From assembly GCA_903813345.2 (NCBI GenBank), contig CAIIXF020000001.1:38471366-38535365 (forward strand): a DNA stretch of 64,000 nucleotides. Direction: 5' to 3'. The notes beneath the pieces are model-generated. The model searched no databases. It was given only the letters and a program-made list of their open reading frames with translations, and was not told where the DNA came from. The position numbers and the translations under genes are program-made. Below are positions 217 to 27,257 of this stretch, in pieces. This stretch comes from Owenia fusiformis (Eukaryota > Annelida > Polychaeta > Sabellida > Oweniidae). Positions within the stretch are counted from its first letter, which is position 1. Every line of letters starts with the position of its first letter.

Positions 217-2357
217 CAATACAATGTTGGAGATACCAGTAAGGTAGTCAATTCCAGTATGATCCACATTGACACGTAGTATGATGCACACGCACGATAG
301 AAACAAGAAAACTGCTGTTACTAGAGACTTCTTCAATATCCATCTAAAACATAAAATGTCCCCGGTAATAATGATTCATGGAATAATTTACAACTGTTTG
401 AAATAATGTTGGATGTAAATAAATGTTCGTATAAATGTTCCGCCGTAATTGGACACAAAAATGTGAATTAAATAGTACTAAACGGTACAGAATCCTCTCA
501 GCAATTTATAAACCACCACAATGTTACGATATAATGGATTGAAGTGCCAGGACCACAAAAATAGGATTTTACCCCTTGGGACATGTCAAACTATGATTAT
601 ACAAATCAATCTGTACCTACCTTATGATTTCTAACTTCTCCCTATTTTTCACATAATCCAATTTGTGTATATTATTTAAGACAAGTATATTGAAAACCTG
701 CCATATCTACAAAGAGAAACGTGATGTGTTGTCATACTCATAGAAATTGTAGCTTTAATATATAACTTGGGTCTAGAAAACATATGCGACTATTTAGTTC
801 AACGCCCCGTGTACATTCCCCTCCAACGGCTTAAGTGTACATGCTTGTATGTGATAGGGGGTCAAATATTGAGACAGTCAATATAGATGTTCTCATGCAA
901 TAATTTAACAGACTTAATAAAACATATCATATATCTATATCTGGTATATGTATATAAATGTGTTCGATTGACAAAGAGTATTCTTACGAAGAGATAAAAG
1001 TAAGCATTAAGCATCATTCTTACCACAAGCATTAAAAGCATAGCAATGCTGAATAAATAAAACTGCCATGATTGAACGGACACCCAGCAACTAAAATAAG
1101 CAAGAAAGACACACATATTGCAGCTGATATATGAAGCAACTGAAGACATTGAACGAAATGCAAAGCATACTGTACACACTGCTCATCCATTAATCTTAAC
1201 TACGATTTCTACGATTCACGCTGACATGTCTATAACTAAGAATAATGTACTCACAAATGTCTCTGACTATAAGGCATGTCGTCTAAAATTGAGGCTATGA
1301 CAACAGGTAGACTGAATATAAATGGCACACCTGAAAAATAAAAGATCATGTTTTATTACATTATATTTGAAGTTTCTTCACGAAGGTTGACTTTATTACA
1401 TCAACAACATTACAACAAGGTGTAGACCATGTATGGAGTATGAGTTATGTGTTAGCACGGGGCTCCAATCATGAAGGCAATGAAAGATTTTAAACGTACG
1501 GAAATATCTTAAATAATTTAAACAATTAATATAATGCTAATTACGTATACAACACATTTTTAAAAATTCAACCAAATAATGAGATAAACCAGAGTACTTT
1601 ACCTAGAATAAGTCCAGCCTTCCACAAAATATTGAATTTTGACTGAATTTTATCCAGTAAATTCAAGTAGAGATCAGTGGATGTAGTAAGCTGGATGCTC
1701 AATGTCATGATGTAGAAACAATAAAGTAAAATATATACACTCTTACACACCATCTGAAATGAGATGACAAAACGAGATGACAATTTTGCTTAGTTTTAGC
1801 ATCTTATATTACAGCAGCGATTGCGATGATGTTAACATGCATGTACATATTTACCTTTTAAGAACCAAGGAAAGTAGTGGCATATTTTACACTAACCTTC
1901 ATATTATATCTATCCATGCCAGCTAGAAGGAGAGAAGAGAGTATAATCATCACGATGCACATGAAGATAACTGAGATTGGCCGATTGTGCTTGTAGTGCC
2001 TTGAAGTAGAACAGCATTTCATCAAAATAAACACGCAGTTATTATAACTAATAAGGATTCTCACTAGACGGTCATATATTGGATTGTGTTTATTTACCAA
2101 TCTTAATTATATAACGTTTTGAACCAATGTACGAGTATTATCCAAAGAAAATGTCAAGTCAAAATATCAATTAGCCTCTAAAGTATTACAATGTTCCGAG
2201 TCGACACCATTGCATTATTCTTCACATTTGCTTCAGATACGTACCTACGAAATATCGTATATATAAAGAAGGTTATACAGAAGCTGACTAGTGATGTGAT
2301 GTAACCCACTGTAACTATTAATGGCGTAACATGGTTGACTTCTAATTCAACGTTATC
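217..2357 (-). CDS. Adhesion GPCR: seven-transmembrane core (exons 15-21), 3' end beyond window
   Basis: Seven short exons give the membrane part. TM1 is in 2357-2245 (VTVGYITSLVSFCITFFIY). ICL1/TM2 is in 1999-1897 (RPISVIFMCIVMIILSSLLL). TM3 is in 1753-1603 (SVYILLYCFYIMTLSIQL). TM4 is in 1330-1255 (PFIFSLPVVIASIL). The ECL2 cysteine and TM5 are in 1090-1024 (CWVSVQSWQFYLFSIAMLL), matching the family CW(L/V)S motif. ICL3 is in 706-621 and TM6-TM7 in 343-217 (SLVTAVFLFLSCVCIILRV, then DYLTGISNIVL). All junction phases agree. Exon 1753-1603 begins at an in-frame ATG that is simply an internal Met. TM3 lacks the usual W.L.EG.YLY sequence (here SIQLTTSTDLYLNL), so receptor output may differ from family norm. 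The cytoplasmic tail is not in the window. Confidence 0.8.
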
Positions 2358-5300
2358 CTAAAATCAGAAAATCAGTAATTCATCGTAAAGAGGTCCATAT
2401 TATCTACACATTTGATGTAACTTACACACAGAGTTGTATTAACAATAGTAATAAGTAACCCTTTTGTAAGTGAAAATATACAACAACATTCCATTAACAG
2501 TATGTTCATTTATTAAGTACTGTTAGCTTTGATTTGTTAGAAACAATTGTTGATAAACCTTTGCTTGACTTTGGGTTGAATTTACAAGTTACCCACACGA
2601 ACATACCGGTACACATGATAAACTTACAGATGATGTTGAAACCAGCAACAGAGAAATATGACCAGAATTGTTACATCTACATGTTGTGTAGTTGATGGAC
2701 CAGCCAACAACATTACATCCATCAAGGTCCCAATATCCATTTGGAAATAACCTATAAAATATATAACATTGTATTAGGCGCTTATAACTCTACAATTGTC
2801 AATCATAATTGTAAGGCTCCTAGGGTTGAACCTCTAAACTCTACAACATAAAGTAAATCAGTAGTAAAATAGTCAAGCCTTACTATACTAAACATAAAAC
2901 AATGTTTTTTAATCTATATTCATGGCTGTTTAATTAAAGTATGAGAGTATATCTGTATAAATCGTCCACAATTTGATTATGTATTATAATATTAAAATAT
3001 GGTTACCTCGATTTCCATTGAGCACATCTTATACGCAACTTCTTTTCTTGAGACTGAAACTCAAAGAAGACGTGAGTTTGTAGTCTCGTGCTTCAAAAGT
3101 ATACTATTGATTTCCCAGTACAAATATTTAGGAAAATATAATGAATCAAAAATCATTAATCAGGCGATTGAATATTATCAATACACTTTTATTTCAGGTT
3201 TAGCAACAAATATACAGACAAGATTTTGTGATATCGATTTTGCATTCAAACAATTTCTAGGACTCGTTTATTATACAAGACATGAAAGGTCGATTTGGAC
3301 TTGACCCAAGATTTGTGAGAGTAAACCTGTCGGGATAGTTACCTTGTCTAAGTGCTCCAATCTAACTAGTGATGGTGAGTATTCTTCGCCCAGAGATGAC
3401 GGGATATATAGTGAGTATATTTTTGAATTCACTGTGTTCTCTCTGAAACGTCAAATTTTCTTTATCAGTTCATCTTTACATACAGACAAGAGACTTCAAA
3501 CATTTTTTTATCGAATTACCTCAATGTGATACTCAAACTCAACTTTATGAAAGCTGCAAAACATCTTATTATTACAGCAGATTAAGTTACTGTATTATGC
3601 ACTTGTTGGCAACATTTAGTAAACCAATTTTACTTACCCTATTGACTCATTTGCCATAATTTGCCAAATGTTTTTGTATTTCACGACTGCAGAAAAGTAC
3701 ATCTCATCGTAAACATCAGTATCTATAAAAGATGAAGAAAATTACTATAGAATATGACATTGGAATGTAACACAAGCTACTTAGAAAGGACAAAAACCTA
3801 CTAGCTGCTGGGAAAAGCTGATAAGTGTAATAACTAGAAGGATAAAAGATTTACTTGGAACAAAAAGAATAATATAGACAAAACAATTAATTAGTCTAAT
3901 GGCGGTCGAAATTGGCATTAATATAATTTATGATTTTCTTATATTTGTACCTCCTATTACACTTAAGGGCGACTCATTCAAGATCTCGTCTTCATGTCGC
4001 TTGTATCTGACATCTGTTCTTGCCACTTTTGTAAAATTCACTTCTGAAAATTTACAAGGCACATGGTGGACAATATTGTACCTAAAACATAGCAGTGTGG
4101 GCTTGGTGACTCAAAAAGCAAGATGGCCACCCAAAAGTTAATCAGTTCTAGACCTTCTTACCATGTAACATGTGTTAAAATTTGAAGTAAATCCGTTGGG
4201 TGGTTTTCTTGGAATGGCGATGATAATGTTTATCTTAAAACTTCCAAGATGGCCATCAGAATGCAAGATGGCTGCCAAAAAGTTAATCAGCTCTAGAATT
4301 TTAGAATTATTCCTACTTAAGCTTTTGTAACCTTTTATGGGGAAATGCCATTAAAACTCTTGAAAAAATTGTATGTTCTGCAAAAGAAATGCTGAAGTTA
4401 TTATTATACTGATCGTCTAGCTCCTTCAGGACCTCTCTTTTCAAAACTGAAAATATTGAATATATTTGACATCAATAAACTACAAACCGCTGTTCAGAAA
4501 ACAGTTTCTGAACCTCCAGAATTTCCTTCAGAACAGAAATTGAAGAAAATCAATTGAATAAAGTGGTCCATTACTTTACAATATTATTTCACTTGATCTC
4601 AAAAAGTCTAAACATCAAATCATTTGAACGAAAGTTAAAGCTTGATTTGCTGAGTCATTATTAGATCTACTTTGAAAAATGCTTTCTTCTCATTACTTGT
4701 ATTTTATTATGATGCATTTTATGCTTTGTCATTTTTTGTTTCCATATTGTTTCCACGGGGTCTTTTCATTGATTTTGTGAGAAAGTCAATTGTTTTGGCT
4801 TGAAACACAAAACAATCTTGAATCTTTATAAATTGAATATATTTTAGGCCGTACTTACCTAAATTGTCTACTTTGATGGAAAGCTGATCGGAAGGCATTT
4901 TATTCAGAATATTTTGTTGTTTCTCTATAAAAGATGCCATGACGACCTCTACTACCTCCAATACCTGCACCCCGAGATGGAATGATCCCTAAACGTGAAA
5001 TTACATCAAGAACGTGAACAATACGAGATGTACATGGTATCATATTATACTACAAATAAATTGATAAAATGAATGTGCGTTTGATAACCTTCAATAATCA
5101 TTAAATATATGAATAACTTACCTTTTTCTCATAATTTGTCAAAACTCTAGATTTAGTAAGAATTTGACTAGTGACTTCAAGGGTCTCCTGGAACAAAATG
5201 GATACGTGAATTGTCAAAAGTATGGCACTTGAATTGTTCGATGTAAATGTGGTAGAATCTTATTCTAAATCTAGTAGCTGTGATAAACAATTATTTATTA

Positions 5301-8300
5301 GTTAACGATGACTAAATTACTCTAGTATGATTGAAATGCCCCGCCCGTGGTCTTTTTGGTTTTGATATTGAATCCTGAATCAGTGAATGGTGGGGAGACG
5401 TATTAAACATTGTTTTTGTGTGTTTGATCAAAGTTTGGGTTATTGGGGGTTTGTTTTCATTCAGTATAACTGGTTTTGCCCTTAGATGTTATCATTTAAT
5501 TGCAATAAGGAAACACTTTTATTACAATAAAAGTTCTGTAACAATACCTTGAAGATCTGCTGCATCATATGGTCGTCCATGAATTTATCAGAATATGAGT
5601 AGACATCTTGAAGTAGTTCCGTCAGTTTTATCAAATCACCGGCGTATATATTGTAGCCCCAATATAACTGACGAGACAGGAACATGTTCATTTGCTGGAG
5701 GATGCTGTATTCCCGAGTCACCATATAGCCATTTTTTAAATTTTCAAACTGAATATTATAAGAAAGAAGAATTAAGTAAAGCTGTTGTCAAGGTTATCTA
5801 GCTGTACATTCCCCTCTAAAGGACAACATTCACTACCAATCGGATACCCTGTTAATGTCTGTTTATGCATGAAAATATTAATGTGTTTAATTGGATTGGA
5901 AGATTATGAAAAGGATAAGTTTTTAAATCACCAATCTTAAAAAGCATTAACACGTCATCCAATAGAGGAATTGATGTTACCAAGCCTTCGTAGGAGAGCA
6001 TAGGGTATGTGTCAATTTCTTTCGATCTAGAAATCGTTACTTTCCACTTTACACGAATTGTACCTGATTTATCATTGAAAAATTATTAAAATAGACGGAA
6101 GAACTTACCAAACATGATATGTCATTTACTCTGTTTGATATGCATGTTGTAAAGATAGGCTCTTCCCAATAACATCCCGTTCCCCCACAAACACAGGCTC
6201 GCGTTGCCTTCCCTTTTAAAGTAAAAAAACAATAGTTCAAAATCAGAAATAGGAGCTTAAAATCCGAAATTGACTGATATGAATCGCTAAATACCAGCAT
6301 AACCCTTAAAGGTATTTTAAAAACAGTTACATCAGAGCAGAAACATTTTTGAGAACAGGAAAAGCATGTTTTGAATTTAGAGACGTTAACGACAACAATG
6401 CCTGTTCCCTGAAGAGGATAATTCCTTAACATTTGTAAGATTAAGTGTGATCGTTGTATAACTAAAGCGTCTATTATAAGCGAATTATAAGAAGATGGTA
6501 TGGAACTTGGAAAGAGGGTGGCGCAATAACGCAACAAAATCAGGCCGTAAGAAAACGTAAGTAGAAGACGATACTACCTTTTGATCCAGCAGGACAGCTT
6601 CTAACACTGGATGAATTGCTATATGAGGGATCCCACTTGACGTCTTTATAGGCCTCAGATTGGCATATATTTTGTCCTAACTCTGGAAAATAAAACACTA
6701 TTTGCACATCCATCGTGGGGTACCTTGACAACAAATGTGGCGCATGAAATTGTAAAGAAATTCATTTTAGGTAAAATCTAATAATTTTCACTATTTACTC
6801 ATTGTTTTATTCGAATCTCATCAGAATTTCGTTTTTCTTTGTAGCCTTCTTCTGAATATTCAAAACGACATTGTTTAAAAATTTTGACTTTTCAATATAT
6901 TTTGGAACATTAACCTAACATTTTTCAAAAATTCTGTGAAAAAAACAATAAGAGTTTCTGTGCTAAAAGGCGCCTAGTTTATGACAATAAACTGGTTTCT
7001 GTACTAAAATGTGAATATTAGGAACTTCGTTTACATCATCTTGCTTCTCTTAAAGCTAGGAACTCATGAAGGTTGCTTTATGGTTTTATCTTACCTGTTG
7101 TTAGAGATGTGTGATTGAGAACATCAATCCTACTCTCCTCACTAGAGATACCTGCCTCATTTCTAACAACACAAGTGTAGACGACAGACATGCGAATATA
7201 CTGGATATGAAGACGAGATCCAGTGGGCAGCAACTCTTCAACCATATCTTTATTTACTGGCTTGTTATTCCTTAGCCAATGGTATTTGAATTTACCAAAA
7301 TTATCATCACGTGACAGGCATGTTATACTCAATCTACTTCCGATTGGAACAATTTTATGAGAAGGATTAATGCTGACATCTGGCGGTGTGATGACATACA
7401 CGTGGAGAGTTTTATTTTCTCTGTCCAACCAATCTTCCACTTGGCAAGTAAAGTCTCCTGCAACAAACACACAGGTATATATAGTATCCACATAAGTTCT
7501 GGCGTCTGTCACCTAGCTTATGTCTTTGGAATTTTAAGTAGACATAATTTGCACAAGGTGACAGTATTACGAAATCCTAATTAAACTGTATGTGTACTAT
7601 GAGTAAGTTTTCTCTGACGTTTATAACATCTGTAGCACTGTTTGGTTATTACTGTATTAAGGTATAAGAAGTGGACGAAGAGTCTTATAACCTTCTTCAT
7701 ATGGTGTTGCACTGTGAATACTGAGCACAGACGCATGGAGTCCTCCTTCTGTCATAGGCATTCTGGTAATGTACATGTCTCTGCTTGCCCTATGCACATC
7801 CACTCTCGATCCATCCTTGTACCAAGTAAATGTTAAGTCTTTTGAGCCCCTTGACTCGCACATGAGTGTAAGTATATTTCCCTGTATCACTGGATTGGGA
7901 TCCTGATTGGAGAGCCCAACAAATGAGAATGCTGAAACGATTAGTTAACAGTTAAGGTGCTATGGAAGTTAACAGAAAATGACAAAACAAAAAATGTCAA
8001 AACCATGCTGGATTTTGAAAGCAATATATTGGGCGCATTTTCTGAAAAAGTCAAAAGATTCTGTTCAGTGACCTTTCCTGAGCACCTACTCTTAGCTATT
8101 TTTCAGTCACATTTTCAGAGGGCTGAAAAGGTTATTTCATCATGTTTATGGTCATTCTGACCATTTCCATTGTGTTCCCAGTCATGTAAATGATATGTGG
8201 AACTAGTTAAACTGACTGGAGGTCCAAACAGAACTCTGTTATCTTGGATCAAAGAAATTTCAAAATCCAACATGGTTTTGACATTTTTTGTTTTGTCATT

Positions 8301-11300
8301 TCCTGTAACTTCCTTAGCACCTTAATGATCATGTTGGGTAACATGTTTGCATTTGAGTACAAGTGGTCACATATGTCAATGGCATGTCATAAATCCAGCA
8401 GACCAAAATATTTTTAAGCACCAGGCTAGCAAACTGAGTATTTCGTGACGCGTTTAAAAAGGGCGGGTAAAATAAAAAAATAATTTAAATAGAATAATAA
8501 TAAAATATCAATTCATCTGTCCGAAAAATCATTGTTTAAGACCAAATATTGACACATTTGGACTTTGACTTATTTCCAAGAGGACCTTCTTGAGGAAAAC
8601 ATTTTAAAGAGAAATGTTACCATTCCTGGTCCTTTGAACAAGATCGAAGAAAGGTCATGCTTGAAAGGTTTGTTTGGAGTGTATTTAACATGTCAACGTT
8701 ATTTCAAAGGCAATAACTGAATACAAAATATTAATTTATTTATTTCACGGGTACCAAGCGACATTGGATGGGAAGCATATCGCATTAATAAATACATGCC
8801 ATATGATCATGATAATCATGATAAACAATGACATCATAATATCAGAGCATGTTTCCACTGAAACATGATGATGCATCGAAAATCAGAATTGATACATAGC
8901 CTTTATTAACATATTCATAGTACAATGTTTTACCTGGCTCATAATGCAACGAGAAATTTTCAGATTGAAGTCCCATCGCCAGCAAGGATGCGTGTGTGTC
9001 TGGGTCCTTCAGAATTTGTATCACGTCATTTTCATCTTTGATATGTCCAGGAAAATAAAGTTCTAAATACGCAGTCCCATCATTTATTTGGAGAGTAATT
9101 TTATGATTTCCATTTTGAAGATAGAAAAACTGCCATAGCTACATGGAAAATAAGTATAGTATATAGGGGGTGAAAAATTTGCAAGCAAAATGTTTAATTG
9201 ACCTACCAATCTATTCCTTACAATTTCAAGTACAATATTTTCTATTAAAGGTCCACCATGTACTAATTGGTGGAGTCATTGGGATTCAATGTGCAAAAAA
9301 TTGGGGGAAATATTTAATATAAGTAGTTATTACAGTAAAAATCCTTAGTGTGGGACTAAAGTGAAATATGCACTTTGGTAGTTTTCAGAAAATATGGTAA
9401 GGGATGATATGAGCCAAAAATATTCAAAAATTGAAATAATATTTTGTTTAGCTTGCTCGATAGATCTGATCCTCTTTTTAATTTACTCTTTGCATTCGTT
9501 CGACTTTGCTTCTTAAATGAGAGCTATGTCTTCATATTTGTAACTAGACTCTGTGCGAAGGGGATCTTATGCATACCAACCTTTTGTTTTACTGAACCAA
9601 ACCACTGGTCTGTCACCTTCGTTGTGTTTAAGACGTATAGCTTTATCATTGACTGAAGGTTGTCTGCAACAAAAACAGGTGTATGGCACCATTAAAAGTT
9701 ATATTGAATGGCCTTGTATGCCCAAAATACGTATTTATATTTAGAGAGGCTCATCACAATCAACAAAAGTTATTCGATAGAAGGTTCATGTATGACCTTT
9801 TCTCTCACTAGCTTTTAGTATCTCTATGTTTGTTCGATTGATGGAAAAACGTTTAGCGTCTCGATTTCGTTCACGTAGCTCAAAAAGTATGCACATTTAA
9901 CAATATCACAATCGTCAATAATACAGGGTGGTAAAAAAACGGCAACCCTAATTTTTCCTCATATCTTTGTCATTTTTGGAAATTTTGCCCTGATATTTGG
10001 CACACATGTACATCATTCAATTTCATACTAGACTGTATTATTTCATGAACATTGGACTGATAGTCGCAATACAGCACTTTAATGCCTTGGTCACATAGGC
10101 TCCGATTTTCACTACGGCGCCCGGCCGATGAGTATTTTGTTCAAAATCGGCCGGCGAGCCCGGGCATCGTACGGGCGCCGGGCGATGATCGCCACTCATC
10201 GGCCGATTTTTAGACATCGTACGGGCGCCGGCAGAGTTTTATCGCGGAGATAAAAGTTGCCGATGTCTTGGCGATTTTTTCTCAACCAAACTCATCGGTA
10301 CCTACCCGGCCGTGTCCCGTCCGGTCATCGTACGATTATCTTACGGCGCCCGGTGGCATCGCACGGTCATCTTGGGATTTTGCGTGCTGATTTGTTGATA
10401 AATATTAATAATGATTACTTATAAAGTGATATAAAGGTTTTAGAAATAATGAGGTAAGGAATTATATTTACTACACACTGTCAGAGATTTTTTATAAAAC
10501 ATAAATGAAACGATTAGGCTTACTGTAAAACAATGACACACATTTGAATGGCTGGGTGGGTGGGTAGGTTGATCTAGTCGTTCTTATATTGACATTAATC
10601 GTGTATGTCTGTCATACACATTGAATAGAGTGATACATTTTTATGCGTATATTCACTCATGCATATACCATTACAATCATTTATTTTAAAAATCTTCTGA
10701 ATGTTTTTGTGAGTACAGTATTTTCAAGGGTCACAATTTTAATACGAACGTTTACTGTCTCAATTACAGTTAATATGCCAAAGGCTAAGGATGGACCATA
10801 TATGAGGAAGGCCTTGGGAAGACAGGTGGAAAAAGACAATAACAATGCTAGTGAGCTGGTGGATGATGAAGATTTAGATGTGTCTAGGGAACAGGGCTTT
10901 CCATTTGAAATAAAGGAAAAAAATTTCAATTTCTTTGATGATAGGCCATATTTTTATGACCAAACAAATTTACGAGAACAGACAAAAGAAAGATACAGAA
11001 ATAGGCAATTTTGCTAATAGCATCAGATAGACACAGGTAGACATAGTATTTGTTTATATGAAAGATCTAAAAATGAATTAAGGTCAGAGTGCACTTTGAT
11101 GAAAAGACCACGTGCAGTATGGCAAGTGATTTTTGACGGTCATATCTTTCACCATGAGTACTTTCTGGGCATAAATACAGTGTTTTTTATTAAAACAATA
11201 TGTTTTCTTTTAATTGAAGTTCCATGTTAGTAAAAATATCAATCAAACAATTTGAAAAATTATGAATAGGGACCCCATGTCAGCATTTTCTTCTAAATAT

Positions 11301-14300
11301 TGAACCTATTTAGAGGATCTTCTTTTTCTGATTTTTATTGCATGAAAACATTATTATCCTGGAAGTCCTGTCTATCGAAGTATTTCGTTTTCAAATCTTG
11401 CATTCATGCCATGTGGAACAGTCATACTGGGTCATACAAGAATTTAGTATAAATCTAGAGGCCTGTAGATCGACCGATGTCCTGGCGGGTGCCGTGCGGC
11501 CATCGGCAGATAGCCTTGCGATACCCATGCGATGTCTTTCAGATTCAATTGATTGCGGGCGCCGTACGATGCCTGTACTAATGTGACCATACTCACGATT
11601 AGATCAAGACATCGGTGAAAAGTCACCGGCGCCCGGTCGATTTATAAATCGGCCGATGACTACTCATCGGCCGGCGCCCGGCGGCTATGTGACCTAGGCA
11701 TAAACAAGGTACCCCAGTTTTCCAATATCGTGCTGTAGGCAAACCTGCACATGTTTTCCAAACCTGTCAATGACATAACAGCATTCCTCAGCAAGTATGG
11801 CCTGAATGACACATGTGATCTTTATTTTGAGGTCAAATGTCTTTCTGGTGTTATTACCCTACACTCTATCTTTAGGGTATCCCCACTGGTAAAGATTAAA
11901 TGGGGCCATATCTGGGCTATGGGGTGCCCATTCATTGTCTGTTGTACTGCTGATAATGTGGTCATTGAAGTGGTCCCAAAGCCAATATTGTGCATCATTT
12001 GGTGTATGGGGTATGGTTCTGTCTTGTTGGAACCACTGTTGCTGCCTTTCAACCCCCTGGGTTCACCTAAAGTCCCCAAGAACTCCATGGGAATCACAAA
12101 ATAGAGTTTGATGTTGACAGTTATTGCATATCTGTTAGCATCATCAAAGGTAAAGGACCCTATCTTCTGAGAACACACTAAACTGTGCATCTGTCTGTGT
12201 GAAGGTGGCTCTCCACTACTTTATAAAGTGCTTTGCTCCCAAGAATACATAATTGTTACAGTTTACCAGTGCATCAAGTTGGAAATGGAGTTCGTTTGGA
12301 TAACAGAACAGCTCAGACAGCCCGAAAGTGGCCATCTGGGGTATGTTGCTTAAAATGCAGTAATATTGTGACTATCAGTCCGATGGTCATGAAATATGGT
12401 AGGTTGGTAGGAAATTGAATGATGTACAAATATGTAAAATTTCAGGGAGTTATTCCTTAGAATGACAAAGATATTAGGAAAAACTAGGGTTGCCGTTTTT
12501 TTGACCACCCTTGTAATATAAACCACTTTGCAAATGGTTGGGTTATTGATTAAGCATTTTTCATTATAAATGTGCAACCAAACTTATATATTCATTTCCG
12601 ATTTCAAAATGAACAGAAAATGACTAAATGAATATTGTAAGTTTTTGAACACTTATAATTTGGATTTACCTATTTGAACGCATGTTCTATTGTCTACGTC
12701 AAGTTTAAATCCCGACTTGCAGGAGCAGGTGTATCCACCAACCTCTACATCCCTGGGTAGACATAATTGGTCACAAGCTAGTGATACGCATTCTAAAAAG
12801 AAAAGAGACATTTAACGTTAATGGCTCTCTGTGAGTTTGAGCAAACTTGGCCATTGTTTTTTCATTAAAAACCGAACAACATCGATCGTTATCATTTCAA
12901 AAGTACATTCCCCTCTATCAACTTCTCGCGCGATCAGGCCTGATTGTGTTTGGTTATTCTTAACTAAAACATAGGCGTAGCCAGGGGGAACGGTGGGTGC
13001 GATCGCCCCCCCCCCCCCACGACCAATAAAAATAAAAACATGAAAAAGGAAGAAGAAAAGAGCTTTAAAATGTTTTTTATTTGAAGCTTCTAGCTCAATT
13101 TTGAATCTTTGTCATAAACCTTCGAGGAGGAGCAAAATGATTGTAGTCCGATGTATCAGATGATTGTCTTACCTGGTGGAAGATAGCCCTTTACTCTATT
13201 CTCACATTGGTTACCTTCAAACCCTGGTGGGCAATCACAGAAGTTTACCCTAGACCCAAAGAAATACCTGAAACAATATAATATAAAATATGCAAATTTC
13301 TTCTTATCGATTGCGTTTTCTCTAAAACCAAAGAACGTTTCTTCCTAAAACTTTAGGATATACTTTACAATTGTATAAGCAATATATCATGTTGAAATCA
13401 GTCTTATTGCAAACATAGTATTGATGTAATAGAATGACAATATAGTACCCCCTTAAAATGTTATTCTAGGGGGGGGGTAAAACTACTCAAAATCCTTCGT
13501 CCACCAACCAAATAGAAGCAGACATCATGAATTGATGCAGAAGGTCATCTTTCTGAAAATGTATGTCTGGCAATTGGCCCTCTGACTTCCAAAAACCCTT
13601 GCTGGAGACTGACCTAATATGTTTAACAAAACCAATGGAAACGTAGATCCTAAAAGTAATGGCTATGCTTATTACTAGATTAGTTAATAAATGTCTTCTC
13701 TCTGGTTTTGATGTTAGCATTTGTGTAATATGTATAATCATATTGCATATTATATAATATAAACCAATGTACCTGCACGAGCCTCCATTATAACATGAGT
13801 TGTTGCCCTTAATTGGATCGCAATGTGGACCATATTCGCACTCTTGGCCCCAGAACCCAGGGAAGCAATGACATTTATAACTTTCAAATCCCTCGGACGC
13901 CAAACAATTTCCTAGAAAGGAGCAGCTGTATACAGAGCAAGCGTCATATCTTGGCTGTGAATTTTCGGGTACTATCTCGTATGTTATATTGAACCCATAG
14001 ACATCTGTTAGGAAATCCTCCACTCGTATGTGCAAGTTTGTTAAGTCGGCTACATCTAGTTGGATCAGCATGTACGGCTTAGAACCGATGATAAAAGTAA
14101 TCTCGTCCTCGAAAAGGAAATTACGAATATAGCTACGTCCCATGAAGAGATTTTCATCCTGGTAGTAAGTGTATTCCGATATTTGGAATGATTCCTTCAG
14201 GTAATACTGCGTAAAATATAAAGCAATTTTCTTGCCGGGAGGTGCGTATATTAACCATGTACATTTTAAAGGCACTGGAAAATTATTTGGGAAGTTTGGA

Positions 14301-14434
14301 GTTGAGATATTTCCGTGTGGAGCCTTCATTAGACCTCCACATACTGCTCCCGTGTTTGAAGGATTATACAATCCACTCGCTGATGACACAGTAGCAATAC
14401 AACACAGCCACAGAAGTCCTTGTCCGGCTATCAT
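217..14434 (-). CDS. Adhesion G-protein-coupled receptor, CUB-EGF3-SEA-like-Ig2-HRM-GAIN/GPS-7TM (C-terminus off window)
   Basis: Twenty-one exons can be joined in phase: 14434-13773, 13267-13173, 12792-12670, 9663-9581, 9138-8934, 7931-7692, 7457-7095, 6682-6578, 6212-6109, 5748-5548, 5187-5122, 4988-4859, 3722-3638, 2751-2628, 2357-2245, 1999-1897, 1753-1603, 1330-1255, 1090-1024, 706-621 and 343-217. The sum is 3309 nt, exactly 1103 codons with no stop. The start is the ATG at 14434, followed by a signal peptide (MIAGQGLLWLCCIATVSSAS). Predicted order: CUB about 32-156, EGF-like 166-200, 205-243 and 254-291, SEA-like 294-389, Ig 390-475 and 485-580, hormone-receptor motif 592-660, GAIN 661-820, GPS 821-862, seven-TM from about 866. 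SEA followed by two Ig recalls vertebrate ADGRF5, and CUB plus HRM recalls ADGRG6; the whole combination matches neither. A cell-surface adhesion and signalling role is inferred from the family. After the last exon (end of TM7) the gene leaves the window. Exon calls are mine, without transcript support; the weakest are 9663-9581 (GTTGGT donor) and 6212-6109. Confidence 0.85.
2628..6682 (-). CDS. Adhesion GPCR: hormone-receptor motif, GAIN and degenerate GPS (exons 8-14)
   Basis: Exons 6682-6578 and 6212-6109 form a hormone-receptor (HRM) module: C..SEAYKDVKWDPS, then SCPAGSKG, CVCGGTGCYWEEP and a final TTCISN segment. Exons 5748-5548, 5187-5122, 4988-4859 and 3722-3638 give about 160 residues, partly helical (LQQMNMFL, LTELLQDVYSYSDKF), consistent with a GAIN domain shorter than usual. 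Exon 2751-2628 is the GPS: W828..DGC833, W838, TTC845RC847, then Asn848-Asn849-Ser850-Gly851-His852-Ile853-Ser854. In cleaved family members the stretch after the last cysteine reads N-H-L-T-H-F-A, with cleavage between Leu and Thr. Here His, Leu and Thr are Asn, Ser and Gly, and the first GPS cysteine is also missing. Self-cleavage is probably lost. Confidence 0.75.
7095..9663 (-). CDS. Adhesion GPCR: SEA-like segment and two Ig modules (exons 4-7)
   Basis: Exons 9663-9581 and 9138-8934 encode about 96 residues with beta-alpha-beta-beta-alpha spacing expected of a SEA module: IKLYVLN strand, KITLQIND and TAYLELYF strands, then a DENDVIQILKD helix. The GS(V/I)VV autoproteolysis motif of classical SEA domains is absent, so SEA-like is an inference. 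Exons 7931-7692 and 7457-7095 encode Ig1 and Ig2. Ig1 has ILTLMCES, FTWYKDG and, across the splice, FTCQVED; Ig2 has LSITCLS, YHWLRNN and VVYTCVVRNEAG, each with the Cys-Trp-Cys core. Ig1 is therefore split by a phase-1 intron just before its second cysteine. These modules are the likely ligand or adhesion surface. Confidence 0.75.
7952..8325. mobile_element. 374-bp foldback/MITE flanked by TTAA
   Basis: About 70-bp terminal arms face each other with roughly 90% identity. The left arm starts TTAAGGTGCTATGGAAGTTA and the right arm ends in the reverse complement of the same sequence. Outer bases are TTAA on both sides, as in piggyBac-type target sites, though the inner terminus GGTGCTA is not the classical piggyBac CCY. 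It lies in an intron of the adhesion GPCR, about 20 bp from the acceptor of the Ig1 exon. No transposase is encoded. Confidence 0.7.
10081..11703. mobile_element. GC-rich inverted-repeat DNA transposon nested in the mariner relic
   Basis: The left end reads ATGCCTTGGTCACATAG and the right end the inverse of ATGCCTAGGTCACATAG. Long GC-rich subterminal repeats built from CGGCGCCCGGCCGATGA and GGCCGATTTT units follow, over 10110-10370 and 11460-11690. These contrast sharply with the AT-rich surroundings. The interior holds one open frame at 10775-11017. The element splits the transposase region of the surrounding mariner relic and is therefore younger. Flanking 3-bp sites look like TTA/AAA, weakly compatible with Harbinger-type duplication; I cannot assign a superfamily securely. 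Confidence 0.7.
10775..11017 (+). CDS. Small ORF inside the nested element, possible MADF-like remnant
   Basis: An 80-residue frame starts with ATG at 10775 and ends at TAA. The N-terminal half is charged (PKAKDGPYMRKALGRQVEKD, then an acidic DDEDLDV stretch). The C-terminal half contains FFDDRPYFYDQTNLREQTKE, which resembles the rP.LYD...kd....r core of MADF/SANT-type DNA-binding domains that accompany PIF/Harbinger transposases. It stops before the later helices of such a domain. Position inside a transposon suggests an accessory protein remnant. The family assignment is inference and the frame may be non-functional. Confidence 0.35.
   Translation: MPKAKDGPYMRKALGRQVEKDNNNASELVDDEDLDVSREQGFPFEIKEKNFNFFDDRPYFYDQTNLREQTKERYRNRQFC
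12670..14434 (-). CDS. Adhesion GPCR: signal peptide, CUB and three EGF-like modules (exons 1-3)
   Basis: Exon 1 (14434-13773) is a long 5' exon holding the signal peptide, one CUB module and the first EGF. The CUB shows the typical start CGG...G.ISTPNFPNNFP with Cys32 and Cys58, and a second half with F.DEITF and DVYGFNITYEI. EGF1 has six cysteines (C166, C171, C177, C188, C190, C199) ending CFPGFWGQEC. EGF2 begins C205 and is split by a phase-2 intron after the CYNGGSCR segment; exon 2 (13267-13173) finishes it with CDCPPGFEGNQC. Exon 3 (12792-12670) is a third module of the C..C.PRDVEVGGYTCSC type, like a calcium-independent EGF. After the true donor at 13773 the frame stays open for about 290 bases; that tail (ending FMMSASIWLVDEGF) is intron read-through. 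Confidence 0.85.
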
Positions 14435-17400
14435 ATCATCACACGTTGCTCTTAAACACTGCTATACTTATCCCCGTTATCATCCTTATCAATGCAATGT
14501 GATTGAAAGCTCCTCATCGTTATGACTTATCGCTATTGTTACTTGTTTGTTCTCTTCGTGGCATCGTCTCTTTTCATAGAGAATCTGAAACTGTAGTAAT
14601 TAGAAATAATTAGCATTGTACATCTACATCATTTTTCTGTTATGCAACTGCAAATATGCTCCGATATTTAATACTATATTAATCAATTAATAATATAGTT
14701 CTTGTTCAGAATCCTCATAATTATGTTACAAAATGGACACATTACTCCTCTGTCACTTTCATTTGATCAAATACAACACAATAATGATGCAGTTTGAAAT
14801 CATGAAATTGTGTGGAATTCGAAAACAAAATCCTTTCAAAGATCATTTTGTGCGTTGGTGAATCAGTATTTTTTCTAACATGTTTACCGTTGACCAATTA
14901 TCACCTTCCTTCTGGATTGCAATGAAATAATATTTTTGTATACAGCTGCTATGCAACCATAAATGCGTTAATGAGTAATACGATTATATTTGGAGAGATT
15001 CTATTGCTTTTTGGCTTATTACCAGACCCCTATTTAGGTATTTCAATGAGGTTAGTATGTAATTGCGTATCCCAATTTGTAATAGTTTTAATAGTTTGCT
15101 TCTTTGAAGAGCTTCGTCTACCAATATACTGGGCGTTGACACTTAGCGAGACATGAGGTTTGGCTGTGCCCCTACATTTGGGTCCCGATTCGGGTGAAAT
15201 CGCCCGTCGAAGCATCGTGTCTAATTTTGAAATAATACACACATTACCGCTAGTATAATCACCCACAGGCCCGTAGCCAGGGGGGTTCGCAGGGTTCGGG
15301 CGAACCCCCCCCCCCCCCGGCCAAAAAATTCTTTCAAAATCATGCAGTTTTTCACCATTTTGAGCACTTCTCAAGTGATTTTGACCATATTTGGGCCTAA
15401 ATTGTCAAATGTGAACCCCCCCTGGAAATTTTTGAAAACTGAACCCCCCCCCCCCCCCCCTTGGCAAATCCTGGCTACGGGCCTGACCCATATGCATACA
15501 ATGGTCGTAAGTAATGCAATATTTCATTTGTATACCGCAAGAACCAATAGGCTTTTGTTGATCTTCTATAATAAATGTCTAACAGATGGAATATAAGGAC
15601 ATTTAGAGTAGTACAACTTACATAAGCGTCTATTATATTCATATATATTATATTAGTAAGTCTATTAGTCCACGAACGTTATCTAAAATCCTGTTGTTCT
15701 TTGAAACATGGACCTCTATCCTTGGCCAGGGGTGGATGTTCGTATTCGGAATATTGTTCAATTTGAGTTTTATCTAAAAAGTGAAAAAATATATTTCCAT
15801 TTGCTTTGACCAGTCTATCTGTTTTTAACAGCTTGATGTAGAAACAACTTCCTCCGGTAAAGTGCAATTTATAGCCTTGTTTGTGCAATAATTATCCGAT
15901 TATGTAATCCGTTATCTCACATTTGATGTCATGCCAAACAAACTGTGGAATCATCTGCGTTTGACCATAGAACTACGATCAAATTGCAAGGTATCTTTAA
16001 GTCCCTAGATTGCCACAGTTTGAAGTAAACAAGTTCTAATATTGCGTCTATTCAGTTTTGGTATTGAGAATTTTATAAGATCATATGAAATCACGACCCC
16101 GGATCCTTTCCAGGATACACACATGAAACGAATGACGAATTGATTCCAAGTGAAATCTGGAATGAAAATGTTTTCCTCTATCCGATTATTATTGCATAAT
16201 GTACCTTTCTATTGAATATACATGTACATGCATCTACATCTTTTTATAGCATTTTTCAAAGTGGCTATTTTGTCATCGTCTTGTGTTGATGGGCGTAGCG
16301 TACGTCTGCCTGTGTGGGTGGGCGGACAAGCGCCACAAAAATCTTCTAACAATTACGTACATACATGTATGTTATTATAAGTTTAGTAAACAAGTACAAC
16401 GGTCAATTACTAGTACATGTTATACAACAGCATGTATCTTGAGGCCATGTTCTAATTCATATAACTGAATGAAATGATAACATCAAATTGATCTGACCAT
16501 CACCTGAATGTATCAATTCGCTCATGATTCCTCTCCCCTTTGCTATCAAATACTTTAGCCTAATACAATAACAACTAGCTTGAGACTGAACATTGGTGCA
16601 TTCCTATCTTATCGATTCAACCTTGATTCAACGATTGTCATAGACAATTCCAAACGGTTCATACCTTAGTGTAACATGCTCTTCTTCCGTGTTCCGATGA
16701 CCTGAAATATCAGATTGTACTTCTTCAACACCTTCTCCAACACCGTAATAATAATCACACCAGTTTCTCTGGTCAGAAAATCGAGCCTACGCACTTATCA
16801 GACCTTACAAGATCAATATATAGAGGTCAATGGTTCAGAAATAATGGTAAACAGGCTTGAATTATAAACAGATTACGCAAATCCTTTGGAATGAGCTATA
16901 CACCCGCTATACGACGACCACCACAAATACCAATGAAGTGAACGGTTTCATTCAGGAGAGTCGTTGCTAAGTAATTCACTAGTGTTTTCAAATATTAGTT
17001 TTGCTAAATTCTAAAGTATTTCACAACTATTATCTTTATTACGCGGTTACATAATTCTATATGTCAATAAGTACAGTATAACTGTATTATTATTCGACAA
17101 ACATGTGAAGGAAAGTAATCTAGAGCACGAGTGCGATTTCAAAGTGCATATTTTGCATACTGATGGGAGTTTACATTGTTGTTCTGCAAAACAACAGATT
17201 GTAGTTTAGAAGCAAGCTAAAAAACTGTTTAAGGACCCCTATCCGACCCAGTTTGAATTGAAATACATATACTATGGTTCTCCTGGGATAGAGGTCCATG
17301 CATATACCCAGTAACATAATTTTACTGGTTGAGATCAACCAATGTTCTTCTGATCGAGATAATGAGGATTAATGATATTCCTATGAAGGTAGCATAGGGA

Positions 17401-17650
17401 TATGATGATATCCCCATACTGACTCAATACACCTTTGCAAAATTTTCGCAGAAGAACATCGGCTGATTAAGACTCGACCAGTAGAAATATCTAGCCCCAA
17501 TCCCAATTAATTAGAATAGGCTAAGGGTTCTAGACAATGGGGTTTCATTTGGTTTTCAGAGCTTTTGGTTTCCTCAATTGTCATTTCCACATTTGGCCTA
17601 CTTCCTTTCGTGACCATCCATCTTGTTGACTAGGAACAAACCCGCCCGAG
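14435..17650. other. Upstream flank of the adhesion GPCR; no gene seen apart from one poly-C element
   Basis: This stretch lies 5' of the receptor start codon. It is AT-rich with short open frames only. It contains the poly-C inverted-repeat element at 15266-15485. A frame at 15888-15679 (minus) is open for 69 codons but has no recognisable motif, and its GGATAGAGGTCCATG segment recurs at 17284-17300, so it is probably repeat-derived. The receptor promoter must lie here, but I see no convincing core element. Confidence 0.5.
15266..15485. mobile_element. 220-bp MITE-like element with GGCCCGTAGCCAGG termini and poly-C tracts
   Basis: The ends are CAGGCCCGTAGCCAGG and its inverse CCTGGCTACGGGCCTG, a perfect 16-bp terminal inverted repeat. 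The interior has two long C runs (about 15301-15319 and 15444-15463) around a conserved core, TTTTTCACCATTTTGAGCAC. Related, incomplete copies lie at 12973-13018, 56126-56245, 60765-60858 and 61195-61258. It is non-coding. Confidence 0.75.
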
Positions 17651-17651
17651 C

Positions 17652-18786
17652 CAATGACACCGAGAATGTTGACACCTTCGACATATCCTTCAGAGTCAAT
17701 GGCACCTAGGATGTTGACACCTTCGACATATCCTTCAGAGTCAGGCACCTAGGATGTTGACACCTTCGACATATCCTTCAGAGTCAGGCACCTAGGATGT
17801 TGACACCTTCGACATATCCTTCAGAGTCAATGGCACCTAGGATGTTGACACCTTCGACATATCCTTCAGAGTCAATGGCACCTAGGATGTTGACACCTTC
17901 GACATATCCTTCAGAGTCAATGGCACCTAGGATGTTGACACCTTCGACATATCCTTCAGAGTCAATGGCACCTAGGATGTTGACACCTTCGACATATCCT
18001 TCAGAATCAATGGGACTTAGGATGTTGACACCTTCGACATATCCTTCAGCGTCAATGGGACTTAGGATGTTGAAACCTTCGACATATCCTTCAGAGTCAA
18101 TGGCACCTAGGATGTTGACACCTTCGACATATCCTTCAGAGTCAATGGCACCTAGGATGTTGACACCTTCGACATATCCTTCAGAGTCAATGGCACCTAG
18201 GATGTTGACACCTTCGACATATCCTTCAGAGTCAATGGCACCTAGGATGTTGACACCTTCGACATATCCTTCAGAGTCAATGGCACCTAGGATGTTGACA
18301 CCTTCGACATATCCTTCAGAATCAATGGGACTTAGGATGTTGACACCTTCGACATATCCTTCAGCGTCAATGGGACTTAGGATGTTGAAACCTTCGACAT
18401 ATCCTTCAGAGTCAATGGCACCTAGGATGTTGACACCTTCGACATATCCTTCAGAGTCAATGGCACCTAGGATGTTGACACCTTCGACATATCCTTCAGA
18501 GTCAATGGCACCTAGGATGTTGACACCTTCGACATATCCTTCAGAGTCAATGGCACCTAGGATGTTGACACCTTCGACATATCCTTCAGAGTCAATGGCA
18601 CCTAGGATGTTGACACCTTCGACATATCCTTCAGAGTCAGGCACCTAGGATGTTGAAACCTTCGACATAACATTCAGCGTCAATGGCAACTATTTTATTA
18701 CCTTCGACATATCCAAAGTCAAGTTTGTGACATCTGGGGCACATATTCCCGGGATGTTGACACCTTCGACATATCCTTCAGAGTCA
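17652..18786. repeat. 45-bp minisatellite with 315-bp (7-unit) higher-order structure
   Basis: The unit runs ATGTTGACACCTTCGACATA TCCTTCAGAGTCAATGGCAC CTAGG (45 bp), repeated about 23 times. Variants occur in a fixed order: a unit with TTGAAACC, four standard units, one with AGAATCAATGGGACTTAGG and one with AGCGTCAATGGGACTTAGG. This seven-unit block (315 bp) recurs, showing amplification of blocks and not of single units. Because 45 is a multiple of three and no stop occurs, both strands stay open for over 280 codons (15-residue repeats MLTPSTYPSESMAPR on plus, DSEGYVEGVNILGAI on minus). Units near both edges lack two bases (TCAGGCACC), which breaks the frame, so coding is not supported. Degenerate copies continue to 18786. 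Confidence 0.9.
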
Positions 18787-24922: not shown

Positions 24923-25440
24923 TCACAAGCGATCTAGATTGAAGTTGCCCATGTCTCTATTAAAGTTTTTATGTTTTCTAATGTGAATGGCTTCTCTTAT
25001 CAACCTATTGTTTCTGTTCCTTTCTGTGCTAACTATTTTATAATTGTTCCAATCAATATCGTGGTTATCTTGGAGAATATGATCTGTTATCGCTGATTTA
25101 TTAAAGCTCTTTTTTATTGTTTCTAGACGTAGTGACTCTTTTTCTTATATGCTTTTGTTTTGTGTTCATTGATGCGAGTGCCAAGAGGTCTACTTGTTTC
25201 TCCTACGTGTATGTAACTTTTATTACAATTGTTGCATGGAACTTGATATACCACGTTCGCTTTGCGATCCTGTTTGACCTTATCTTTAGGATATTTCGAA
25301 GTGTTTGCATAGGTTTAAAAGCTACTTCGATATTTTTTCTTCATTATTCTTCTAATTTGCTCTGATACATTTTTCACATAGGGTATGGTTACTACCTTTT
25401 TTATTTCTGTCTTGGGCTTAGTGGAACATCAATTGTGAAT
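24923..25440 (-). mobile_element. 3' end of a Penelope-like retroelement: GIY-YIG endonuclease domain, frame-broken
   Basis: Minus-strand frames read PYVKNVSEQIRRIMKKKYRS, then ANVVYQVPCNNCNKSYIHVG ETSRPLGTRINEHK, then AITDHILQDNHDIDWNN and a terminal NLDRL stop. The V(P)C..C...YIGET.R.L..R..EH signature with the preceding SE.IRRI.KK segment is the GIY-YIG endonuclease found at the C-terminus of Penelope-like and related retroelements. The frame is broken near 25310 and 25135, and no reverse transcriptase lies upstream, so this is a 5'-truncated dead copy. Confidence 0.8.
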
Positions 25441-25582: not shown

Positions 25583-26728
25583 CTACTCTAAAATCAGATG
25601 AGATACTTCATTAATATCTACATGTACATCTAACCATTCTTGACATGTTTTTATCGGTCTGAACTTATCTGGCAACTCCCTTAAATAATTGTGAAACATT
25701 ACATACGAAGCATTGTCAGAAAATGTTCTCACAAATGTGAACTGCCGTTCGGGTGGCAGCTGCTTATCAATGGTATCATATTCATCAAAGTCCGACTGTA
25801 CAGCAATGTCTATGGCTGACGAGATGAAATCACTACACGCAGTTGAACACGTATCAATCCACTGTTCTGGTTGATCACGATTTACAGCTACTATATCTGG
25901 ATTTGTTTCAAGCATTCCGTCGACCCGTTTCATCATAGCAAATGTCTTCTCTCGTTGAATGAAGTCACCATCAAATTGCATACTTTCATTTATGTCTCTA
26001 AATCGACGTCCACTGGACAACGAATCCAGTTTAATAGGTTTTATAACATCAACTGTACCGTTATTGGATTGAAAATGACATGACACTTTTGACTGGTATT
26101 TCCTTTTATTTATCTGTCCATGTTGTGAGGAGTTTGCGTATGAAGAAGAAAAACTTGACGTCATCTTACTCCGTACACCTTCGTCAGGAGGTCGAGTTTC
26201 GTTGACAACACCATGATCATTCAGACATATCCTTTTGATTCTTTTCTTTATACGGTCTTCATTATACAATGAATTATTCAGGGCAAACCTGTTAGAGAAC
26301 GTATCATTCTGTAAAATTGGTGTCTTTTCTTCACCGCCTTGCCAGGTGGAAGTTGATCTCGATAAGTTACGTAATGAACGTTCGATGTTCATCGGTGAAT
26401 CACTGGAATTTTCATTTAGGCTGGATGTTACTTTATTTAGAACCTTGCTACTTAACTTCAGTGGTTTAGATGGTAGTGTATCCAATGGTTTCAACATAAA
26501 GTTCCTCTGTTTAGCTTCACCATCATGTGTGTTTGGTTTATACGTCTTCCAGTGTGCCTTTGCTAATGATTCAACACGCTTCCAGTTCGCAACACCTCGT
26601 TTGATTTCATCAAGACGTTGACGCTTCGCTTTATTACTCACAGAGGTAGAAGGGACGCTATTCTGGGCTATTTTCTTGGCTTCATCTTCTCTCATCATTA
26701 CTGTGTTCATCAGTATTCGAGTTGACAT
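25583..26728 (-). CDS. Uncharacterised protein of 381 residues encoded by one long exon
   Basis: I do not recognise this protein. The frame runs from ATG at 26728 to a stop at 25583. The first 60 residues are basic (AKRQRLDEIKRGVANWKRVE, a possible bipartite nuclear signal KRQR...KR). The middle is Ser/Asn-rich and probably disordered. A second basic patch, RIKKRIKRICL, lies near residue 170. The last 110 residues are acidic and better ordered (SSAIDIAVQSDFDEYD, then EWLDVHVDINEVSHLILE). Codon use and length argue for a real gene in otherwise gene-poor DNA. An acceptor-like CACAACAG lies just upstream of the ATG, so 5' exons may exist. A nuclear role is only suggested by the basic patches. 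Confidence 0.6.
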   Translation of the reverse strand: MSTRILMNTVMMREDEAKKIAQNSVPSTSVSNKAKRQRLDEIKRGVANWKRVESLAKAHWKTYKPNTHDGEAKQRNFMLKPLDTLPSKPLKLSSKVLNKVTSSLNENSSDSPMNIERSLRNLSRSTSTWQGGEEKTPILQNDTFSNRFALNNSLYNEDRIKKRIKRICLNDHGVVNETRPPDEGVRSKMTSSFSSSYANSSQHGQINKRKYQSKVSCHFQSNNGTVDVIKPIKLDSLSSGRRFRDINESMQFDGDFIQREKTFAMMKRVDGMLETNPDIVAVNRDQPEQWIDTCSTACSDFISSAIDIAVQSDFDEYDTIDKQLPPERQFTFVRTFSDNASYVMFHNYLRELPDKFRPIKTCQEWLDVHVDINEVSHLILE

Positions 26729-27257
26729 AACGTCTGTTGTGTTGGTTCGGATCTTAGCGGCGTTGACTCAAATTCTTATCTATTGGATTGATGTTCGATT
26801 GATCCGAAGATGAAGAAAAGACTATATTCTCTTAATGTTTGTATTGTTTGTATTTGTTTTCCTTTGCGTATCCAGTAACTTTTCAAACAAAAGTTCAAAG
26901 TCTTGTATTTACAATCCATTTGGTATTATCTCAAAAGAGTGGCATCATAGTACTTATGTGATCAATTAAAACAACACTAATTCTATATATTCTGTATCAA
27001 AATCCGAAATATCATTGGATTGAATTGTTTATATTTGATATGGTGGTATCTAGATACAGGTCTAGAATATACGTCGAATAATAAATTAATCGTTTTGTAT
27101 CGGTAAACGGCTTAATGGTAATGTGGGTATTAGTTGAGCTAAGTAGCCAATATGAAAGACGCTATTTACACGAGTAATATTGAATATACCATTGGAAAGA
27201 AATAGATGTCAGGAGTATAACATCATGATAAACCATGACATCTCATTTCTTCTCAGC

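Follow-up and report, generated by a model that had tools for sequence, protein, structure and literature searches.

Adhesion G-protein-coupled receptors (GPCRs; class B2) set a long modular ectodomain ahead of a GAIN domain with its GPS and a seven-transmembrane (7TM) domain of the 7tm_2 family, and they differ in the modules they carry; ADGRF5 (GPR116), for example, carries SEA and Ig. Together with the hormone receptor domain (HRM), GAIN and 7TM make up a module that is older than animals (PMC12716839). ADGRB3 (BAI3; CUB-TSR-HRM-GAIN-7TM) has an N-terminal CUB (PMC13197933) and ADGRG6 (GPR126) unites CUB, SEA, HRM and GAIN in a single chain (PMC11475505), while shuffling of adhesion GPCR ectodomains is already known, having been suggested for the amphioxus receptors with CUB and I-set (PMC2246102). 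Cleavage within GAIN needs the motif H-X-S/T and a supporting conserved Phe, the position of Leu821 in ADGRB3; the motif is common but not universal, being absent from 10 of the 32 human adhesion GPCRs (PMC13062082). In this study, we describe a receptor gene of Owenia fusiformis, found in a stretch of 64,000 bp (the window; positions 38471366-38535365 of contig C1 in the 498-Mb genome), in which CUB, EGF, a SEA-like module, Ig and HRM, adhesion modules that as a rule are spread over different receptors, are joined to one 7TM core whose cleavage site and signalling landmarks seem eroded. On balance, we favour its being a single intact adhesion GPCR with a shuffled ectodomain, most likely uncleaved and possibly devoted to adhesion first, with weak signalling.

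Results

The receptor gene is real and intact, and its product is modular, has seven helices and starts with what resembles a signal peptide. Our splice model, built on the minus strand, extends in the window from 14434 to 217 with 24 exons; their 1183 codons contain no stop, and all 23 introns there are GT-AG. At its start the frame has a Met that, by eye, looks like that of a signal peptide, and it continues as far as the 7TM domain. A preliminary description of this DNA had joined 21 exons into 1103 codons without a frame error; the continuous multi-exon frame and both end coordinates proved correct for the window portion of the gene, but the counts were too low. Past the left window edge, four more exons (C1 38470380 to 38468998; L001 8515-7133) supply the rest of TM7, the tail and the stop, so that the complete product has 1351 amino acids, spread over 28 exons with 27 of 27 introns GT-AG. 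When these 3549 bases were shuffled as mononucleotides, the sequences contained 78.9 stops on average and were stop-free in none of 2000 cases, a weak control because the exons had been chosen for being open.

That the product is an adhesion GPCR, as previously proposed, is borne out by Pfam and by structure-linked sequence searches. The 7tm_2 domain scores 32 bits against a cut-off of 20.6 in the full-length Pfam scan and the GPS 27.7 against 22.5 in a piece scan, and a GAIN domain with the GPS precedes TM1. The Pfam GAIN model itself found no match in the full-length or piece scans; GAIN is instead shown by alignment, as residues 5-345 of our 354-residue HRM-GAIN query align, practically end to end, with ADGRB3 (PDB 4dlo; E 4.7e-12). 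Further PDB matches to this query were ADGRB2 (3e-8), ADGRL3 (from 7.1e-8), latrophilin-1 (1.6e-5), ADGRE5 (1.9e-4) and CELSR1 (0.0012), with ADGRG1 and ADGRG2 reaching only 0.016-0.036. ADGRG6 was unmatched up to E 10, though its ectodomain is in the PDB. Among receptors, the 7TM domain alone matched only ADGRL2 (E 2.2e-9) and ADGRL3 up to E 10, and the best match of the GPS-7TM part was ADGRL3.

The end-to-end HRM-GAIN match depends on leaving out a 25th window exon of our first model, 4446-4332. This candidate lies in repeat DNA and is in frame only with a far acceptor at 4081. The segment 4747-4308 recurs in contig C10 (L002) as two stretches, 92% and 89% identical, with indels, and 4301-4081 belongs to a high-copy repeat with at least 148 further genome matches on many contigs, many of them overlapping and often arrayed in tandem at a spacing of about 145 bp. 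Once the candidate is skipped, exon 12 can be spliced in phase to the acceptor at 4043, and the ADGRB3 match rises from 45.7 bits, with a best stretch of residues 5-120, to 48.8 bits over the full range given above. The exon was therefore removed, although it is still contained in the full-length protein of the Pfam scan, in the paralog-search query and in one Pfam piece (protein 3).

These core searches bear on the reading that the gene is an ordinary ADGRG6 (CUB-PTX-SEA-HRM-GAIN) or ADGRF5 ortholog, cleaved and G-protein-coupled, which gained or kept EGF and Ig modules. CUB, HRM and possibly SEA are common to ADGRG6, and in the PDB the receptor CUB matches, among others, that of ADGRG6 (E 3.7e-4). 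The HRM-GAIN query, however, is best matched by receptors of other groups, the 7TM domain by ADGRL2 and ADGRL3, the Pfam listings hold no pentraxin, and the cleavage triad is lost (see below), all of which makes such an ortholog unlikely. By sequence comparison, the core would thus speak against a plain ADGRG6 ortholog and lends no support to ADGRF5, bearing in mind that single-sequence scores are not a tree. The preliminary description had measured the receptor against ADGRG6 for CUB and HRM and against ADGRF5 for SEA and Ig. That comparison is weak: ADGRG6 itself has SEA, ADGRB3 also has CUB, and the core best matches ADGRB3 and ADGRL2/L3.

Ahead of the core, most of the proposed order CUB-EGF3-SEA-like-Ig2-HRM-GAIN-7TM holds, the exception being SEA, and with CUB, EGF and Ig over their Pfam cut-offs the ectodomain is long and modular. 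The usual CUB pattern has four cysteines. The receptor CUB lacks the second pair, and it is above the Pfam cut-off (34.5 against 21.4 bits in the scan of the N-terminal piece) over profile positions 1-52 of 110. In the PDB it matches cubilin with a whole-sequence E of 4.1e-18, a sum over several CUBs, and the best single stretch shown is PCPE-1 (8.4e-8); the Pfam and PDB stretches cover mainly the first half. A predicted model made without an alignment (mean predicted local distance difference test score, pLDDT, 45.8) matches CUB chains in Foldseek along most of its length, with unrelated beta proteins in the same rows. EGF was found in three stretches (23.9 against 21.5 bits, piece scan; under the cut-off in the full-length scan), cEGF at 40.6 against 26.6 bits (N-terminal piece scan) and Ig_3 in two stretches at 67.3 against 30 bits (full-length scan), and the Ig pair matches Ig domains of DSCAM, Robo and RPTP-delta in the PDB. 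HRM scored 20.8 bits (E 5.2e-4) in a piece scan, under its cut-off of 26.2, and was absent from the full-length scan listing; it is supported by the ADGRB3 alignment. In exons 4-5 there was no Pfam SEA match and no PDB sequence match with E < 0.14, and a predicted model of one exon (mean pLDDT 66.1) gave no named SEA fold among the best 50 of 269 Foldseek rows. The end of exon 5 is predicted as strand-strand-helix-strand, which would fit the latter half of a SEA fold but shows nothing beyond that. The Pfam check of the chain that had been suggested therefore returned CUB, cEGF, EGF, two Ig, GPS and 7tm_2 over cut-off and HRM below it, with the SEA and GAIN models unmatched.

The module borders of this ectodomain fall on phase-1 introns. 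All four borders, EGF2|EGF3, EGF3|SEA-like, SEA-like|Ig1 and Ig2|HRM, do so, and phase 1 is used by six of the eight introns before the HRM|GAIN border as against four of the 19 from the border on (hand count; Fisher p 0.025). Class 1-1 modules are a signature of extracellular exon shuffling (PMC8001218). Of the two options previously raised, an ancestral-like combination or a shuffled receptor, the latter is thus the better.

The same introns inform the question of whether our model has joined two adjacent genes, one for a secreted CUB-EGF protein (exons 1-3), the other for a receptor that begins with the SEA-like exons. A 3-kb intron does separate these blocks, and translation continued through the donor of exon 3 ends after five codons (G-K-S-K-L), which would allow a short secreted form. 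Against two genes, the EGF3 donor and the SEA-like acceptor are both phase 1 across this intron, the later module borders are again in phase 1, and when the intron was crudely scanned for a second signal-peptide exon, it held one hydrophobic ATG start and no fitting GT[AG]AG donor. We give the two-gene alternative little credence; one signal peptide, matching phases and the phase-1 borders make a single gene likely, if not proven.

At the GPS, the receptor reads C-R-C-N-N-S-G-H-I-S-L-L-L, and its alignment with ADGRL3 from C-x-C to TM1 needs no gap, which assigns N-S-G to the triad position. The same spacing, two residues after C-x-C, holds H-X-S/T in all 19 other GPS matches that the genome yielded (14 by pattern, with H-L-T, H-T-T or H-L-S, and five by eye), whereas the receptor has no H-X-S/T there. 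On the ADGRB3 alignment, the position of the supporting Phe lies, by our count, 34 residues ahead of Arg855; the receptor has Gln there, before the conserved Trp. With N-S-G as triad and Gln where cleavage-competent receptors carry Phe, the sequence suggests that the receptor most likely stays uncut. Positions 3, 6 and 7 of the tethered agonist are important for its action, and by the ungapped ADGRL3 alignment these core positions are I, L and L.

A cleaved form of the same gene with normal signalling is conceivable, since H-I-S lies three residues on and satisfies the H-X-S/T motif (PMC13062082), and it could serve as a cleavage site if the loop holds a three-residue insertion. The ungapped alignment, which puts N-S-G at the triad, and the Gln in place of the supporting Phe both argue otherwise, leaving cleavage at H-I-S only a slim chance.

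Of the 26 7tm_2 matches in the genome that are near full-length, 20 were aligned with the 7TM domain of the receptor (six were omitted, one for containing a stop). Among the 20 columns invariant in these 20 other 7TMs, the receptor keeps nine and changes 11, a rough count because the comparison set is probably another group and TM6 aligned with a gap. Both TM3-loop 2 cysteines and the N and G of TM7 are among the columns kept; the TM3 Trp, the TM5 Pro and Asn, the TM6 Trp and the TM7 Gln are among those changed. Solved ADGRL3 has the TM3 Trp, G-x-T-W in TM6 and N-x-x-Q-G in TM7. The changes in TM3, TM5, TM6 and TM7 suggest weak or altered G-protein coupling, and adhesion or ligand capture may therefore be the main role of the receptor.

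The altered 7TM columns and the lost GPS triad would also be explained by a gene decaying into a pseudogene. Such decay is very unlikely in view of 1351 open codons, GT-AG at every intron and the cysteines that, by eye, are retained in EGF, Ig, HRM and GPS, as well as those of the first CUB pair and of the TM3-loop 2 pair.

No close paralog emerged from the genome in the 37 of 195 candidates scored, and further searches gave only E > 0.01; besides the gene itself, the paralog search returned CUB matches of 30-38% identity, the C10 repeat and one EGF-region match on contig C111. On the plus strand of that 28-kb contig, the EGF-region match (10089-10406) and a GPS match (17020-17139) lie 7 kb apart and possibly belong to another EGF-bearing GPS gene. 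Screening by eye of 60 7tm_2 matches, at least 151 CUB matches (150 of 322 candidates scored) and the 19 GPS matches revealed no other CUB-bearing adhesion GPCR: among the matches listed, no CUB comes closer to another GPS or 7tm_2 match than about 138 kb, and that pair, on C11, is on opposite strands. Divergent genes escape such a screen, as its lists contain neither the GPS nor the 7TM of the receptor itself. A dense cluster of CUB matches, about 29 kb, occupies C1:49112822-49141476. The 26 near full-length 7tm_2 domains lie on single long open reading frames (ORFs) of 611-1230 amino acids, apparently intronless, on C1, C2, C4, C5, C8, C9, C10 and C11.

Features of the receptor gene in the window are listed in Table 1.

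Table 1 Features of the receptor gene and the repeat within it, in window coordinates
Feature	Position	Strand	Basis
Exon 1: signal-peptide-like start, CUB (~13970-14341), EGF1, EGF2 start	13773..14434	minus	Pfam, PDB, Foldseek; signal peptide by eye
Exon 2: EGF2 end	13173..13267	minus	Pfam EGF, GT-AG
Exon 3: EGF3, cEGF-like, symmetric phase 1-1	12670..12792	minus	Pfam cEGF, phases
Exons 4-5 (9663-9581, 9138-8934): phase 1-1 exon pair, SEA-like module of unconfirmed fold	8934..9663	minus	
Exons 6-7 (7931-7692, 7457-7095): two Ig domains	7095..7931	minus	Pfam Ig_3, PDB
Exons 8-9: HRM domain	6109..6682	minus	ADGRB3 alignment, sub-cut-off Pfam
Exons 10-17 (5748-5548, 5187-5122, 4988-4859, 4043-3951, 3722-3638, 3442-3343, 3053-3007, 2751-2628): GAIN with GPS	2628..5748	minus	
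Repeat DNA within the exon 12-13 intron, including the false exon 4446-4332; outside the gene product	4081..4747	minus	
GPS triad position N-S-G (2669-2661), then H-I-S (2660-2652)	2652..2669	minus	Spacing as in 19 other GPS
Exons 18-24 (2357-2245, 1999-1897, 1753-1603, 1330-1255, 1090-1024, 706-621, 343-217): TM1 to TM7 start	217..2357	minus	

Elsewhere in the window, a 45-bp tandem repeat (17648-18692; 23.4 copies, 96% matches) lies upstream of the receptor gene; it is minisatellite-like and open in frames on both strands, of 295 and 286 amino acids. A probable exon of a glucosidase II beta subunit-like gene (54217-54510, minus; PRKCSH-like, 37.4 against 34.9 bits) and a GIY-YIG-like fragment, perhaps a retroelement remnant (25123-25314, minus; 19.5 bits, below the cut-off of 22.6), were also seen. 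Two ORFs of 394 (25583-26767, minus) and 640 amino acids (35709-37631, plus), for which Pfam gave nothing up to E 0.01, are perhaps exons of unnamed genes. Downstream of the receptor and on the same strand, a possible signal-peptide first exon of the next gene was noted by eye (L001 ~4405-4486, minus).

Discussion

Taken together, the module borders, the core alignments and the GPS suggest how such a receptor may have arisen and may work. Exon shuffling would have assembled [CUB-EGF-EGF]-[EGF]-[SEA-like]-[Ig-Ig] ahead of the old HRM-GAIN-7TM core. The distal modules would bind matrix or neighbouring cells, and the last GAIN strand, in the HRM-GAIN block, would carry a hydrophobic tethered-agonist-like stretch, G-H-I-S-L-L-L. 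Signalling, if there is any, would then proceed by a shift of the tethered strand in place, with no dissociation. With CUB, EGF, Ig and HRM on one core and the joints still in phase 1, the gene offers a clean case for how ligand range is built, and its lost triad provides a testable natural example of tethered-agonist use by uncleaved adhesion GPCRs.

Several points, in addition to the nearby H-I-S, weigh against an uncleaved, adhesion-first receptor with a shuffled ectodomain. The gene model is computed, and the phase test concerns a single gene with borders chosen after the pattern was seen. The 19 GPS used for comparison were found by a motif-favouring profile, and some may belong to GPS proteins other than adhesion GPCRs. 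As for the 7TM columns, the 11 changes include a gap and a Leu to Ile exchange, the TM6 alignment is gapped and uncertain, and the comparison 7TMs sit on long, apparently intronless frames, probably of another group. Finally, divergence alone is ordinary, because invertebrate adhesion GPCRs are often without clear human orthologs: 24 of the 30 in Ciona have none assigned (PMC2396169), and most of those of sponge and sea urchin cluster apart from the human ones (PMC4302439).

A stronger version of our favoured reading, which we offer only tentatively and regard as rather doubtful, would make the receptor an adhesion "pseudo-GPCR", with the ligand-binding ectodomain kept by selection and enlarged by exon shuffling, the self-cleavage site and the 7TM switch given up, and only the membrane fold retained. 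Were this true, a mechanosensitive signalling receptor would have been turned into an uncleaved adhesion or ligand-capture protein.

Among known systems, ADGRB3 resembles the receptor in its HRM-GAIN part, where it is the best match, in its N-terminal CUB, and in that the wild type is uncleaved with a non-canonical GPS (PMC13062082). It differs in that the Pfam listings of our receptor hold no thrombospondin repeat, EGF, SEA-like and Ig modules being present instead, and in that the 7TM alone matches ADGRL and not ADGRB. The latrophilins ADGRL2 and ADGRL3 share the HRM-GAIN-7TM core and supply the best 7TM matches, ADGRL3 also the best for GPS-7TM; unlike them, our receptor has no lectin or olfactomedin domain in its Pfam listings, and its N-S-G stands in place of the strict H-L-T described for the GPS of ADGRL1 (PMC13062082). 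ADGRG6 is alike in joining CUB, SEA, HRM and GAIN, with the SEA of our receptor unconfirmed; it differs in that the core of our receptor does not match it, that EGF and Ig modules are present in our receptor, and that the Pfam listings of the latter hold no pentraxin. ADGRF5 is alike in Ig and, with the same reservation, in the SEA-like module; it differs in that the receptor has CUB, three EGF and HRM, and no ADGRF match appeared in the core PDB searches, the PDB content for ADGRF5 being unchecked. The amphioxus receptors are alike in their CUB and I-set ectodomains and suggested shuffling, but the exact combination was not seen in the text of that report, nor was the same domain chain found in open-access literature text, figures and supplements lying outside the search in both cases. 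In conclusion, the receptor combines known modules in a new way on a core that is old and divergent, and is not a new kind of protein.

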